Shown here one piece after another: positions 32,141-38,279 of a stretch of DNA of 41,941 nt. Source of the stretch: an uncultured Pelagibacteraceae bacterium (GTDB lineage: Bacteria; Pseudomonadota; Alphaproteobacteria; Pelagibacterales; Pelagibacteraceae); NCBI GenBank assembly GCA_902631265.1, contig CACOXX010000007.1:1-41941 (forward strand). The letters are read 5' to 3'. A model generated the notes under the pieces. The model saw only the letters and a program-made list of their open reading frames with translations. It was not told the origin of the DNA and searched no databases. The position numbers were made by a program, and so were the translations under genes. Each line of letters starts with the position of its first letter. The first letter of the stretch is position 1.

Positions 32141-33517
32141 CTAACTTTTTATAAAAAAATATTTTTTATTATCTTTAAACATATAATTAAAAAAAGATCC
32201 TATAAAAAACAGTACTACTAATCCCATTAACCAATTTGTAACTAATATTGTATAAAAGATATCGCTGTAACCCCCTCCTTTAATATTAATAACGTACCAT
32301 AAACATAAAAAAGGAATTGCAGTAAGCCTTAATATACTAAGATACAAACTAAAGATGGGTCTCTTAAGAGCCTGAAATACAGCAGTAGTAATAAAAAAAG
32401 TTGGATATATTGGACCTATCAATGCTGCAATCTTTAAATATAGAGATCCAAATTTAATAGTTTCTGGATCATCAGTAATTAATCCGAGGAGATTTTCTGC
32501 CCCAAAATAAAGAATAAAGCCAGCCATGATCATAAATGAACAACCAAATATTAATGCTTTTTTATAAAGGTCTCTTATTCTTTCAAATTTTCTAGCTCCG
32601 AAGTTTTGACCTCCAATTGATAATACAGCCGTATTCAATGCTATGACTGGTAATAAGAAAACTTGTTCTATTCTAAGTGCAGCTCCATAACCAGCTGCAG
32701 CAATATCTCCAAATTTTCCTACAAAGTATAATACATTAAATATACCAACACCGATTAACAGCATGCTAAACATTATTGGCACAGACTGAAAAGTAAGATT
32801 ACTTAAAAAGTTAATTTTTGGAATAAAACACTTTGCATATAAATACTCTTTGAGTTTACAACAATAAACTTTTTGCGCTAAATAGATTGTTCCAATAAGT
32901 TGGCAAATAACTGTAGCGATTGCAATACCTGAAATGCCAAAAGCAGGTATTACGAAAAAACCAAAAATAAAAATTGGATTAAGTATGATGTTTAAAAAAA
33001 ATGTAAAAATGAGGACATTTCTATAACTTTTTGTATCACCTTGAGCGTTTAGTGTTCCATTTAAAGATATTTGGATTAATACTATTACTGTGCAATAAAA
33101 AATTATATCTAAATATTCCCTAGTCAAAATAATATTCCCTGGAGAAGACCCTAATAATTGAAGAAGATAATTGGATGAATTAATTCCAATAAATGTGACT
33201 AATAATGAAATAACTATTGCAAAAATTATTGATTGAGCAACATATAATGAAGCAACTTTTTCTTTTTTCTCGCCTATGGAATTTCCTATAAGTGTATTAG
33301 TACCAGCTCCAACACCAACACCTATTGCGATTATAATAAAATAAATTGGAAACGATTTTGCTAGAGCACTTAGTGCATCAGGTGATATCTTTCCAGCAAA
33401 AAAAGTATCAACCAGATTATAAAAGGTTTGAAATAAAGATCCAATACTAGCAGGAAATGTAACTCTCCTTAGAAGTTGCCACATTGGATCCACTGTTAAA
33501 TTAATCTTCTTAACCAT
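32141..33517 (-). CDS. MATE-family multidrug/Na+ or H+ antiporter
   Basis: A 458-residue membrane protein with about twelve hydrophobic segments in two related halves. The N-terminal half has FYNLVDTFFAGKISPDALSAL and GAGTNTLIGNSIG, and the second half has GQNFGARKFERIR, both MATE hallmarks. It resembles the NorM/DinF type efflux proteins; the substrate cannot be read from sequence. It is the last gene of the gatCAB-OMT-trhO unit, starting directly after the trhO stop, and converges on the ABC permease gene one base away. Confidence 0.92.
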   Translation of the reverse strand: MVKKINLTVDPMWQLLRRVTFPASIGSLFQTFYNLVDTFFAGKISPDALSALAKSFPIYFIIIAIGVGVGAGTNTLIGNSIGEKKEKVASLYVAQSIIFAIVISLLVTFIGINSSNYLLQLLGSSPGNIILTREYLDIIFYCTVIVLIQISLNGTLNAQGDTKSYRNVLIFTFFLNIILNPIFIFGFFVIPAFGISGIAIATVICQLIGTIYLAQKVYCCKLKEYLYAKCFIPKINFLSNLTFQSVPIMFSMLLIGVGIFNVLYFVGKFGDIAAAGYGAALRIEQVFLLPVIALNTAVLSIGGQNFGARKFERIRDLYKKALIFGCSFMIMAGFILYFGAENLLGLITDDPETIKFGSLYLKIAALIGPIYPTFFITTAVFQALKRPIFSLYLSILRLTAIPFLCLWYVINIKGGGYSDIFYTILVTNWLMGLVVLFFIGSFFNYMFKDNKKYFFIKS

Positions 33518-34420
33518 CTATTTATAAATTTTTTTAAACATGTAATCTTTTTTTTCTTTTTTTGCTTTATCAATTTGACCTTGTCTCATTCTAAACCCTT
33601 TCTTTTGTTCATCACTTGATTTATTATAACAAGTAGGACAAGAAACACCCTCTTCAAATTTTACGGACTTCTTATCTTTAACAGAAATAGGTTCTCTACA
33701 TCCAGCACAAATTGAATATTTGCCTATATTTAAACTATGGTTCACAGAAACACGATTATCAAATACAAAACATTCTCCTTTCCACAGGCTTTCTTTTCTT
33801 TTAATTTTTGACAAATAATTAATAATACCTCCTTTTAACTGAAAAACATTTTTATAACCTTTATTGTATAAATAATCGCTGGCCTTTTCGCATCGAATGC
33901 CTCCTGTGCAAAACATTCCGATTTTCGAATTCTTATTAAACTTTTTAAAATATTTAGAAAAATCTCTAAAATTATTTAATTTTGGATTTATAGATCTCTT
34001 GAAAGTCCCAATCCTAAACTCAAAATCTTTTCTAGTATCGATTATATAGGTGTCTTTGTTTAAAACGAAATTATTCCATTCCTTAGGAGAAAGATGATTA
34101 TCTTTAACTTTTTTTTTAAGTCTTTTTCCAATTGGAACAACTTCCTTTTTAACCTTCACCCTTCCTTTATGAAAAGGAATAAATTTATTAAAAGAAATAT
34201 TTTCATTATCAAATTTTGAAATGGAAAAGATTTTTTTAAGGTTAATTTTTATTTGTTTAGTATTTTTTTTTAGGAAAGAAATTGATCCATTTATCCCCTC
34301 AGGTGAGATAATTATAGTTCCTTTAATTTTGTAATCATCTATGAAATTTTGAAGTTTGTCTTTGAGTTTACTGATCTTTTTTAATTGTTTAAATTTATAA
34401 AAACCAAAGATGGTATACAT
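33518..34420 (-). CDS. trhO: tRNA uridine(34) hydroxylase, rhodanese-like (TrhO/YceA)
   Basis: A 300-residue protein that in E. coli forms 5-hydroxyuridine at the wobble position of certain tRNAs in an oxygen-dependent reaction. The N-terminal domain begins MYTIFGFYKF and includes GTIIISPEGINGSI. The rhodanese domain contains IIDTRKDFEFRIGTF and the loop MFCTGGIRCEKAS with C171 as the expected catalytic cysteine and a second cysteine C177. A Cys-rich end follows (CAGCREP and CPTC). The ATG overlaps the stop of the O-methyltransferase gene in TAATG, suggesting coupled production. Confidence 0.94.
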   Translation of the reverse strand: MYTIFGFYKFKQLKKISKLKDKLQNFIDDYKIKGTIIISPEGINGSISFLKKNTKQIKINLKKIFSISKFDNENISFNKFIPFHKGRVKVKKEVVPIGKRLKKKVKDNHLSPKEWNNFVLNKDTYIIDTRKDFEFRIGTFKRSINPKLNNFRDFSKYFKKFNKNSKIGMFCTGGIRCEKASDYLYNKGYKNVFQLKGGIINYLSKIKRKESLWKGECFVFDNRVSVNHSLNIGKYSICAGCREPISVKDKKSVKFEEGVSCPTCYNKSSDEQKKGFRMRQGQIDKAKKEKKDYMFKKIYK

Positions 34421-35076
34421 TATAATTTTCTACAAATTGAAAAGCCATCACCTATGGGGATAATCATATTTTCAACTCTTATATCGTTATTTACATAAGT
34501 ATTAAAATCTCGAATTATCTCAGTTAAGTGTTCATTATTGTTTTTATCTACAACTTCGCCATGCCACAAAACATTATCAATAATTATAAAACCATCCCTT
34601 TTTAATAAGTTAAAAGACAATTCATAATATTTTTTGTAATTTTCTTTGTCAGCATCTATAAAAATCAAATCAAACAATTTTTTTTGGCTTATTAATTTAT
34701 TAATTCCATTAATAGCTTCATCAATAATAATATCAATTTTTTCTGAAACTTTTGCCTTTTCAAAGAAATTTTTCGCTACTAATGAAGTATCTTTGTTTTT
34801 ATCGATAGTGGTGATCTTAGAGTCGTTTTCTAGACCAATGCACATACTTAATGAGCTAAGACCAGTAAAAGTACCAATTTCTAAAATTTCTTTAGGTTTA
34901 AATAATTTTGTTACTAAATATAAAAAATGACATTGGTTGATTGAAATTTGTAATTTCTTTTTTTTTCCAAGTGTGTCATTATGTTTAATAATTTCATCTT
35001 GTACTGGATGTAATTTTAAAGAGTGCTCATCAATATATTTTTCTATTTGTTTATTAATAGGTAGATTTGAACTCAT
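34420..35076 (-). CDS. Class I O-methyltransferase, probable TrmR-type tRNA 5-hydroxyuridine methyltransferase
   Basis: A 218-residue SAM-dependent methyltransferase of the caffeoyl-CoA OMT family. Motif I is EILEIGTFTG (residues 63-71 region), the metal site LIFIDADKENY (D141, D143) and IIIDNVLWHG (D167, N168), and the end reads MIIPIGDGFSICRK. B. subtilis TrmR (YrrM), which methylates 5-hydroxyuridine in tRNA to 5-methoxyuridine, belongs to this family and is about the same length. The gene overlaps trhO, whose product makes 5-hydroxyuridine, and follows gatCAB. That context is the reason for the specific call; a catechol-type small-molecule OMT remains possible. Confidence 0.72.
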   Translation of the reverse strand: MSSNLPINKQIEKYIDEHSLKLHPVQDEIIKHNDTLGKKKKLQISINQCHFLYLVTKLFKPKEILEIGTFTGLSSLSMCIGLENDSKITTIDKNKDTSLVAKNFFEKAKVSEKIDIIIDEAINGINKLISQKKLFDLIFIDADKENYKKYYELSFNLLKRDGFIIIDNVLWHGEVVDKNNNEHLTEIIRDFNTYVNNDIRVENMIIPIGDGFSICRKL

Positions 35077-35077
35077 G

Positions 35078-36541
35078 CTAGTTCAATTTTTTCTTTAAAA
35101 TATCATTTACTAACTTAGGATTGGCTTTGCCATCTGTCTTTTTCATAACTTGACCAACAAAAAAACCAAACAATTTATCTTTACCGGATTTAAATAGTTC
35201 AACATTTTTAGGATTTTCTTTAATTACATCATCTATAATTTTTTCAATTTCTTTAGGGTCGCTTTGTTGTTTCAATCCCTTTTCGTCAATAATGCTTTTT
35301 GGATCTTTGCTTTCATTTGCCATTATTTCAAAAACTGTTTTTGCAATTTTGCCAGAAATGGTACCATCTTTAATCAAGTTAATTAAAGATGATAAATTTT
35401 TAGATGAAATAGGACTTTGTGATATTTCTAAACTTCTATCATTAAGTAATGCAAATAATTCACCTGTTATCCAGTTTGTTGCTAGCTTAATATCTGAATT
35501 TTTAATTACATCTTCAAAATATTTTGATGTTTCAATATCAGATACCAATATATTTGCCTCGTATGGAGTTAATTTAAACTTATCTACAAATCTTTTTTTC
35601 TTTTCATCGGGAAGTTCAGGTATTTCCTTTTTTATTTTTGATATGAAATCGTCAGTTAATTCAAGTGGTAACAAGTCAGGATCAGGAAAGTATCTATAAT
35701 CGTGAGCATCTTCTTTTGATCTCATCGATCTAGTCTCATTTTTTTTTGTATCAAAAAGACGAGTTTCTTGATCAATAGAGCCTCCCTCTTCTAATATATC
35801 AGCTTGACGGTTTGCTTCATATTCAATTGCCATTTGCATAAATTTTATAGAATTGACGTTTTTAATTTCACATCTTGTGCCTAACTTTTTATCCCCAGTC
35901 TTTCTGATTGAAACATTCACATCAGCTCTTAAAGATCCTTCTTGCATATTTCCATCACAAGTTCCAAGATATCTCATAATTGATCTAAGTTTTTTGATGT
36001 ATAAATTTACTTCCTCTGGAGATCTTAAGTCTGGTTTGCTTACTATTTCCATAAGGGCAACTCCAGACCTATTTAAATCTACTAGAGTGTTTTGGGGATC
36101 AATGTCATGAATACTTTTTCCTGCATCTTGCTCTAAATGCAGCCTTTCAATACCAACTTTTTTTTCTCCATCAGGTAAATCTAATAAAATTGAACCTTCA
36201 CCAACTATTGGATCTTTGTATTGAGAAATTTGATATCCTTGTGGTAAATCAGCATAAAAATAGTTTTTCCTATCAAAAATTGATTTTTTATTTATCGCTG
36301 CATTGAGACCTACGCCCGTTTTTACTGCTTGCTTTATACAAAATTCATTTATTACTGGTAGCATTCCAGGAAATGCAGCATCTACCAAGCTCACTTGGGT
36401 ATTTGGTTCAGCACCAAAGTTTGTAGGCGAGTCAGAAAATAGCTTCGATTTTGAAAGAACTTGAGCATGAACTTCTAAACCAATTATAACTTCGTATTCT
36501 GAGTTACCTCTCTTTATTAAATATTCTTTATTTTTACTCAT
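35078..36541 (-). CDS. gatB: Aspartyl/glutamyl-tRNA(Asn/Gln) amidotransferase subunit B
   Basis: A 487-residue subunit that binds the mischarged tRNA and activates it by phosphorylation in the GatCAB complex. Conserved: [65 protein letters not shown] and [11 protein letters not shown]. The C-terminal YqeY-like domain follows (from about residue 340), including [17 protein letters not shown]. It overlaps gatA by four bases and lies one base from the O-methyltransferase gene. Confidence 0.97.
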
Positions 36542-37995
36542 TTAATCCACCAATCCTGAAAATTGTTTTTGAAACTTAATTCTTTTTCCATTGAATATGA
36601 AATATCTAATAAATTCTGCTCTTCAAATGCTTTGCCTATTAGTTGTAAGCCTAAAGGATAATCATTTTTATCTTTACCTGCTGGAATAGATATAGCTGGC
36701 AGTCCTGACAAATTGACTGGCACTGTAAAGATATCATTTAGATACATTGATACAGGATCATCTGTTTTGTCACCAATCTTGAAGGCCGAACTAGGTGTGG
36801 AAGGAGTCAAAATTGCATCTATAGATTTATAAGCTTCATCAAAATCATTTTTGATTAATCTTCTAATTTTTTGTGCTTTTAAATAATAAGCATCATAATA
36901 ACCAGATGACAAAACATATGTTCCAATCATTATTCTTCTTTTTACTTCATCACCAAAACCCTCTGATCTTGTGTTTTCATACATGCTGATTAAATTTTCT
37001 CCCTCAGAACGATATCCGTACTTTACTCCGTCATACCTAGCTAGGTTAGAGGATGCTTCAGCTGGTGCAACTATATAATAAGCAGGCAATGCGTACTTAG
37101 TGTGAGGTAAAGACATATCAATAATTTTTGCTCCTAATTTTTTTAATAAAGTAATTCCATCTTGCCACAAACTTTCAATCTCCTTGGGCATGCCATCGAC
37201 TCTATATTCTTTTGGAATACCAATTTTTTTTCCTTTAATATTAGAACTTAACGATTTGAAATAATCACCTCTCTTAAAATTTACCGATGTTGAATCTTTT
37301 GTATCGTACTTACTTATAACATCTAACATTAAAGCAGCGTCAGACACATCCTGAGTCATCGGTCCTGCTTGATCTAATGAAGAAGCAAATGCAACAATAC
37401 CATATCGAGAACAACTGCCATATGTTGGTTTCAAACCCACAGTACCAGTAAAAGACGCTGGTTGTCTTATTGAGCCTCCAGTATCAGTTCCAATAGTTGC
37501 TGGTGTCAATTTAGCTGCAAGTGCTGAAGCTGATCCACCTGAAGACCCACCTGGCACAACTTTTTTACCAACTGGACTTTCGACATTTCCAAAAAAACTA
37601 GTTTCGTTTGATGAACCCATTGCAAATTCATCACAATTAAGTTTTCCAAGCAAAATAGCCCCTTCATCCCATAAATGTTGGGTTACAGTGGACTCGTAAC
37701 TAGGAATAAAATTTGAAAGTATTTTACTTCCAGCTGTTGTCTTTAGATTATTGGTACAAAAAAGATCTTTAACTGCAAGGGGAACTCCAGGGAGCTTGTA
37801 ATCAAAATTTCCCTTTTCATCAAATTTTTTGGCTTTTTCAATTGCATTTTCAAAATCGGTAGTGATGTATGTATTCAAATCTTTCGATTTTTCAGCTCTA
37901 GCAATATATGCTTTTGTAATTTCTTGAGAAGATAATTCTTTATTCTTAATTTTATCAATTAAAGCTGATAAAGTAAGGTTTATTATATCACTCAT
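36538..37995 (-). CDS. gatA: Aspartyl/glutamyl-tRNA(Asn/Gln) amidotransferase subunit A
   Basis: A 485-residue amidase-signature subunit that releases ammonia from glutamine for transamidation of Glu-tRNA(Gln) or Asp-tRNA(Asn). The Ser-Ser-Lys triad is visible: K76 in [11 protein letters not shown], cis-serine S151 in GGSSGGSAS and the nucleophile S175 in [34 protein letters not shown] follows. The length is normal. Four-base ATGA-type overlaps join it to gatC and gatB. Confidence 0.97.
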
Positions 37996-38279
37996 TCTAC
38001 AACCTTTGGTACGACAAAAAAATCTTTATTTTCGTCTGGTGAATTTTTTAAGATTTGTTCTCTTATATTTTTTGTTTTGACCTCATCGCCTCTTAATTTC
38101 AATGATGTTTCGGCAATTGATGTCAGTGGGTCCACTTTTTTAGTATCAACTTTATTTAACGCTTCGATAAATTCAAAAATAGAATTTAGATCTTTTTCAA
38201 GTTCTTTTGCTTTTTTATCATCTATGGAAATTCTTGATAATTTTGCTATATGTTTAATTGTTTTAAGATCTATGCTCAT
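37992..38279 (-). CDS. gatC: Aspartyl/glutamyl-tRNA(Asn/Gln) amidotransferase subunit C
   Basis: A 95-residue subunit that holds GatA and GatB together. Typical blocks are [41 protein letters not shown] and the C-terminal [10 protein letters not shown]. It is the first gene of the minus-strand gatCAB-OMT-trhO-MATE unit and is divergent from ruvX, with 50 bases between them. Confidence 0.95.

Follow-up and report, generated by a model that had tools for sequence, protein, structure and literature searches.

The DNA analyzed here, which we call the window, is a stretch of 41,941 nucleotides from an uncultured member of the Pelagibacteraceae. Two of its genes, one for a putative O-methyltransferase (OMT) and the other for the tRNA hydroxylase TrhO, overlap by a single base (Table 1). 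The overlap lies in the sequence TAATG, where an earlier note on this DNA had placed it, and we infer that it couples the translation of trhO to that of the OMT gene. The pair sits directly downstream of gatCAB, as the same note had claimed: gatC, gatA and gatB all pass the cut-offs of their NCBIfam equivalogs, and one base separates gatB from the OMT gene. On the far side, trhO abuts a gene for a MATE-family efflux transporter, which is probably not part of the pathway considered below.

Table 1. Genes and junction at the OMT–trhO locus, in the order of transcription (positions are those of the window)
Feature	Position	Strand	Remarks
gatC	37992-38279	minus	NCBIfam equivalog cut-off passed
gatA	36538-37995	minus	NCBIfam equivalog cut-off passed
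gatB	35078-36541	minus	NCBIfam equivalog cut-off passed; directly upstream of the OMT gene
OMT gene	34420-35076	minus	ATG-started ORF, 218 aa
TAATG	34418-34422	minus	OMT stop TAA (34422-34420) and trhO ATG; common base 34420
trhO	33518-34420	minus	ORF, 300 aa; ATG at 34420-34418
MATE-family efflux transporter gene	32141-33517	minus	abuts trhO downstream

The name given to trhO at the outset stands. Its product scores 251 bits against the TrhO equivalog NF001133, for which the cut-off is 170, and the catalytic loop, CTGGIRC (CXGGXR and the Cys that follows), is intact in the translation. A Pfam search finds the domains UPF0176_N (PF17773) and rhodanese (PF00581), and a Rhodanese_C match that falls under its cut-off (21.2 versus 26.9). 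The best match in the PDB, at 186 bits, is Lpg2838 of Legionella (4f67), which, like E. coli TrhO (YceA), has the same domains and catalytic loop as the window protein. The residues of that loop, C-T-G-G-x-R-C, are named, and were mutated, in Sakai et al. 2019 (PMC6599085). Judged by its sequence, the window TrhO very likely makes 5-hydroxyuridine at the wobble position of tRNA (ho5U34).

The known route from there to 5-methoxyuridine (mo5U34) is that of B. subtilis, in which the methyltransferase TrmR (YrrM; 5zw3/5zw4) acts with TrhP1/P2 and TrhO (YbfQ). The SAR11 pair resembles it in combining a hydroxylase with a SAM-dependent O-methyltransferase of the same superfamily and the same fold. 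The genes are arranged differently, however: according to Sakai et al. 2019 (PMC6599085), trmR of B. subtilis lies in an operon with trhP1/trhP2, whereas the SAR11 OMT gene overlaps trhO. That paper also describes yceA–trmR gene fusions in Phytophthora and Phaeodactylum. Hydroxylase and OMT are thus physically coupled in both settings, by fusion in the one and by overlapping genes in the other. E. coli, the same paper relates, goes on from ho5U by way of CmoA/CmoB, instead.

The OMT belongs to the Pfam family Methyltransf_3 (PF01596), which it matches at 190 bits; in an NCBIfam profile search it passes no cut-off. When PDB sequences are searched with phmmer, its top match is SynOMT of Synechocystis (3cbg), at 148 bits. 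YrrM/TrmR ranks 32nd, at 72 bits, outscored by 31 distinct sequences, among them many variants of the same few plant enzymes. In a careful tree of 47 proteins, 14 of them SAR11 OMTs, the SAR11 proteins form one clade (support 96/99) that falls, with moderate support (91/96), inside the CCoAOMT/SynOMT branch. The TrmR clade—5zw3 and 8k1f, the PDB chains named TrmR or tRNA 5-hydroxyuridine methyltransferase, and their relatives 2gpy and 3ntv—has support of 98/97 and leaves the SAR11 OMTs outside, as does the TrmR clade of a quick tree of 96 proteins. A tree constrained to join the SAR11 OMTs to the TrmR clade is 8.95 log units worse (p-AU 0.0795), so that grouping is disfavored, yet not rejected at 5%; three SAR11 rows of the alignment, and 8k1f, are flagged for an odd letter make-up that could distort the tree.

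The residues tell a similar story. D141, D167 and N168 of the OMT, which we take to be metal ligands, are invariant in 29 sequences. After the first of these aspartates the 14 SAR11 rows read DADK, or DGDK in one of them, whereas all four TrmR-clade chains read DAAK; the motif DAAK[GA]Q occurs in no SAR11 row. As marks of TrmR, FIDAAK[GA]Q and a K/R-rich loop are our own, drawn from these four PDB chains rather than from the literature, and the second separates the groups poorly: the median of K plus R in the insertion loop is 5.5 in the TrmR-clade chains and 3.5 in the SAR11 OMTs, with overlapping ranges. An AlphaFold model of the OMT (mean pLDDT 94.9) comes closest in fold to Coxiella 3tr6 (Z 33.3), SafC (5log; 33.1) and SynOMT (3cbg; 33.0). 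TrmR (5zw3) has the same fold but is less close (Z 28.8, rmsd 2.1), and a comparison of this kind does not separate enzymes that act on tRNA from those that act on small molecules.

Domain, ligand residues, tree and fold agree, then, that the OMT is a cation-dependent SAM O-methyltransferase of the SynOMT/CCoAOMT branch. It would be very surprising if it were, instead, a true but highly divergent orthologue of TrmR. Superfamily and fold are common to both, a joint clade survives at the 5% level (p-AU 0.08) and the oddly composed rows might have misled the tree; but the best tree puts the OMT in the other branch, the residues beside the metal site are DADK/DGDK in every one of the 14 SAR11 rows and DAAK in all four TrmR-clade chains, and the 31 PDB sequences that outscore TrmR point the same way. 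The earlier note had assigned the OMT to the family of TrmR. As far as superfamily and fold go, this was right; clade, DAAK[GA]Q motif and score rank lend it no support in any narrower sense, and in the best tree, where the note would have had TrmR set against the catechol OMTs, the protein groups with the small-molecule enzymes.

Nearest to the OMT by sequence, tree or fold are SynOMT, SafC (absent from our tree), plant CCoAOMT and Coxiella 3tr6. The last is uncharacterised, according to its title, and the other three are small-molecule enzymes; a point of difference is the overlap of the SAR11 OMT gene with trhO. This kinship in sequence, tree and fold favors an explanation in which the substrate of the OMT is a small metabolite resembling catechol, or else a protein side chain, and its gene is simply one member of a gat–OMT–trhO run, with ho5U34 the end product of TrhO. 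We regard this as a serious possibility, though one that we would not bet on. A report on an Anaplasma OMT of the same superfamily (PMC4636158) describes methylation of a surface protein, Msp4, and lends substance to the protein version.

How the pair is conserved bears on this explanation in both directions. Our sample of the order Pelagibacterales comprises 117 genomes, 64 from the window's family and 53 from a sister family, and TrhO is found in 100 of them. In 63 of the 64 genomes of the window's family the OMT lies directly upstream of TrhO on the same strand (in one, G034, it is cut by the contig end and is counted), with 5–17 bp between the profile matches; the 64th, G092, has neither OMT nor TrhO. 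The exact 1-base overlap recurs in 13 of 21 pairs, namely that of the window and those of 20 fetched regions. The other eight range from a 1-base gap to a 31-base overlap, taking the first possible start codon in each. Wherever TrhO occurs in this family, then, in 63 of 63 cases, the OMT is kept beside it, in genomes of only 1.0–1.5 Mb (the incomplete window genome excepted), and this counts against a small metabolite or a protein as substrate. Against reading too much into it, matches to gatA and gatB lie upstream of the pair in all 20 fetched regions (and a MATE match downstream in 16, with none in the other four), and the upstream gat synteny could hold OMT and trhO together passively.

The expectation that the pair would be conserved across SAR11 is borne out in the window's family, and the sister family is without it. 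TrhO is present in 37 of the 53 sister-family genomes, none of which scores higher than 87 bits with PF01596. TrhO evidently functions there without a strong OMT of the window type, a circumstance that favors the small-metabolite or protein substrate; these genomes are often incomplete, and single absences among them therefore weigh little. In four sister-family loci inspected by eye, TrhO follows a DNA glycosylase-like ORF, immediately so in one. In the other three, an ORF of 273–276 aa comes immediately before TrhO (L003:1805-2632, L019:1804-2634 and L029:1784-2605); the one in L003 belongs to an acyltransferase family (PF19576).

The sister family does contain OMTs of another kind. Two that we compared, L053:4018-4647 and L057:2102-2764, are unlinked to TrhO and lie amid what appear by eye to be oxidoreductase-like ORFs. 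Both are nearest to mammalian COMT (114.5 and 130.8 bits), and we rejected the idea that they are TrmRs standing in for the window-type OMT: the first scores 38.4 bits with 5zw3 and 49.6 with 8k1f, and for the second 8k1f alone of the TrmR chains is among the matches listed, at 45.6 bits.

As a check on its route, the note had asked whether cmoA and cmoB are absent from the genome. For cmoB the outcome is favorable, there being no evidence of CmoB in either the order or the class. Matches to PF08003 exceed the low Pfam cut-off in 58 of the 117 genomes of the order, but among the matches listed none is a full-length CmoB; they are partial, covering the SAM-binding part, and the best scores 43.7 bits. 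TIGR00452, the more specific CmoB profile, has weak matches in 123 of 142 genomes of the class, that of the window included, with a best score of 73.7 and none over the curated cut-off of 275. The CmoB step of E. coli thus has no visible counterpart in the SAR11 order or the class genomes searched.

The window genome is 72% complete, and we took the tRNA set from G026, a genome that belongs to the same genus and is complete. It has 32 tRNA genes, which agrees with the note's description of a genome with few tRNAs. UGC is the only alanine tRNA and UGG the only proline tRNA, and so two codon boxes each rely on one U34 tRNA; in the Val, Ser, Thr, Leu and Gly boxes, U34 and G34 species occur side by side. 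Such a set fits xo5U modification, and fits ho5U and mo5U equally well.

Overall, OMTs of this branch show no tie to TrhO in the class and phylum. Counting as strong those OMTs of at least 165 bits, and reading the co-occurrences by eye from listings, we find TrhO in 9 of 44 strong-OMT genomes of the class, versus 48 of 142 overall, and in 16 of 38 such genomes of the phylum, versus 110 of 219 overall. OMTs of the SynOMT/CCoAOMT branch are not enriched in TrhO across either, and here again the evidence leans toward a small metabolite or a protein as substrate. Among the nine class genomes with both genes, OMT and TrhO are adjacent in G000, G001 and G148, the last being another genome of the class, in which they are divergent; in the phylum sample they adjoin only in the window. 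OMTs of 100–165 bits, by the same reckoning, are accompanied by TrhO in 6 of 7 genomes of the class and in 9 of 10 of the phylum, G225 being in both samples. We considered these as possible TrmRs and rejected the idea: the quick tree puts none of the seven from the class in the TrmR clade, and three of them are long branches.

Farther afield, adjacency recurs. We examined 80 named loci of the OMT branch, the best-scoring among at least 579 that were confirmed. Two of these 80, from Rivularia and Plectonema, have a convergent, adjacent TrhO, and the other 78 have no TrhO within their flanks; TrhO occurs somewhere in 26 of 50 genomes checked for these loci, and in 13 of the 16 that are cyanobacterial. 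A sample of 145 cyanobacterial genomes yielded 100 with TrhO, 10 of them with two. The OMT adjoins TrhO, convergently, in 10 of 107 cyanobacterial TrhO loci (L283-L389), and in one further locus it lies about 2 kb away. (Outside the 107 stand L257, which has no OMT; L259, from Rivularia, the center genome, picked for its pair; and one fragment.) In the 12 paired cyanobacterial loci, three of which are just 3.3 kb long, only OMT and TrhO are common to all, and the next families are found in four. Paired and unpaired cyanobacterial OMTs are mixed in one clade, so pairing marks no separate subfamily.

How much this adjacency means can be judged from the other immediate neighbors of cyanobacterial TrhO. 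For the OMT (10 loci), 87% of locus pairs are without another common family, versus 2% for a control block around a biotin synthase-like family beside TrhO (11 loci); several families of syntenic blocks near TrhO reach 10–12 loci. A histone deacetylase-like (HDAC-like) gene, however, gives 77% in 12 loci. The cyanobacterial association looks real but not unique, the OMT behaving as a neighbor much as the HDAC-like gene does, and because the latter is as frequent beside TrhO, the argument from adjacency is tempered. Recurrence in these two other lineages, the cyanobacteria and another alphaproteobacterium, nonetheless tells against an OMT with no connection to TrhO, and keeps the note's mo5U route in play as a hypothesis.

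Some other features of these loci deserve mention. The HDAC-like gene adjoins TrhO in L296, L302, L305, L308, L312, L319, L321, L323, L324, L329, L342 and L358, in contexts that otherwise vary; the family assignment is that of the L302 member (PF00850). A GNAT acetyltransferase domain stands at the N terminus of ten TrhO copies from cyanobacteria: L355:2578-3759, where Pfam identifies it, and those of L363, L366, L368, L369, L370, L372, L373, L375 and L378, recognized by blastp with the first 150 residues of the L355 protein. In each of the genomes concerned, a shorter open frame gives a further TrhO match. Together, the HDAC-like neighbors and the GNAT fusions hint at a link between acetylation and TrhO. 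A DUF938-type gene adjoins TrhO in L284, L290, L307 and L337 (PF06080, for the family's member in L257).

What, then, might the OMT of the window do? 5-Hydroxyuridine is catechol-like, in that its 5-O and 4-O can chelate a metal, and an enzyme of the SynOMT/CCoAOMT branch could therefore methylate it. In the route we propose, TrhO would convert U34 of wobble-U tRNAs to ho5U34, and the OMT, recruited independently of TrmR, would methylate the 5-hydroxyl with SAM and a divalent metal, yielding mo5U34. In a genome that lacks CmoB, this modification would help a single UNN tRNA, such as that for Ala (UGC) or Pro (UGG), to read four codons. That a methyltransferase not orthologous to TrmR performs this step is plausible, at a little under an even chance. 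We infer that the OMT acts on tRNA from the coupling of the genes, the retention of the pair in small genomes and the recurrent adjacency; these are set against the wrong branch and the want of general co-occurrence, and on balance mo5U34 formation comes out nearly, but not quite, as probable as its opposite. Because the OMT lies in a different branch from TrmR, and is without its DAAK[GA]Q motif, the methylation step is still a guess.

A related thought is that free ho5U released by tRNA turnover, rather than tRNA, is what the OMT methylates. The precedent is Rv0187, a COMT relative, which one report (PMC6543040) describes as converting free ho5U to mo5U in vitro, without significant activity on ho5U-tRNA being detected by its authors; for TrmR, conversely, the authors record no significant activity on the free ho5U nucleoside. 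In judging the route on tRNA, we count the first of these results for it and the second against it. Rv0187 has no assigned physiological role, however, and we think a free nucleoside an improbable substrate. A survey of M. tuberculosis (PMC10531406) mentions a homologue of TrmR for which no hydroxylase is apparent. With Rv0187 and the Anaplasma OMT, this makes it plain that homology within the superfamily does not fix the substrate.

No title or abstract opening in the literature we searched reports an OMT–TrhO pair in SAR11. It may be, although we incline somewhat against it, that the SynOMT/CCoAOMT branch harbors a second, phylogenetically independent class of ho5U34 O-methyltransferases, partnering TrhO in the Pelagibacteraceae, in some cyanobacteria and in another alphaproteobacterium. 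If so, mo5U34 arose at least twice. We know of no physiological substrate for the cyanobacterial SynOMT-type enzymes, and the proposal offers them a native function that can be tested. Bacterial genes annotated as caffeoyl-CoA or catechol O-methyltransferases, where they lie beside TrhO, would need to be read anew. For its wobble chemistry, SAR11 would get by on a pared-down route to mo5U of two genes, one of them for a non-orthologous methyltransferase, and some of the ocean's most abundant bacteria would contain mo5U34.
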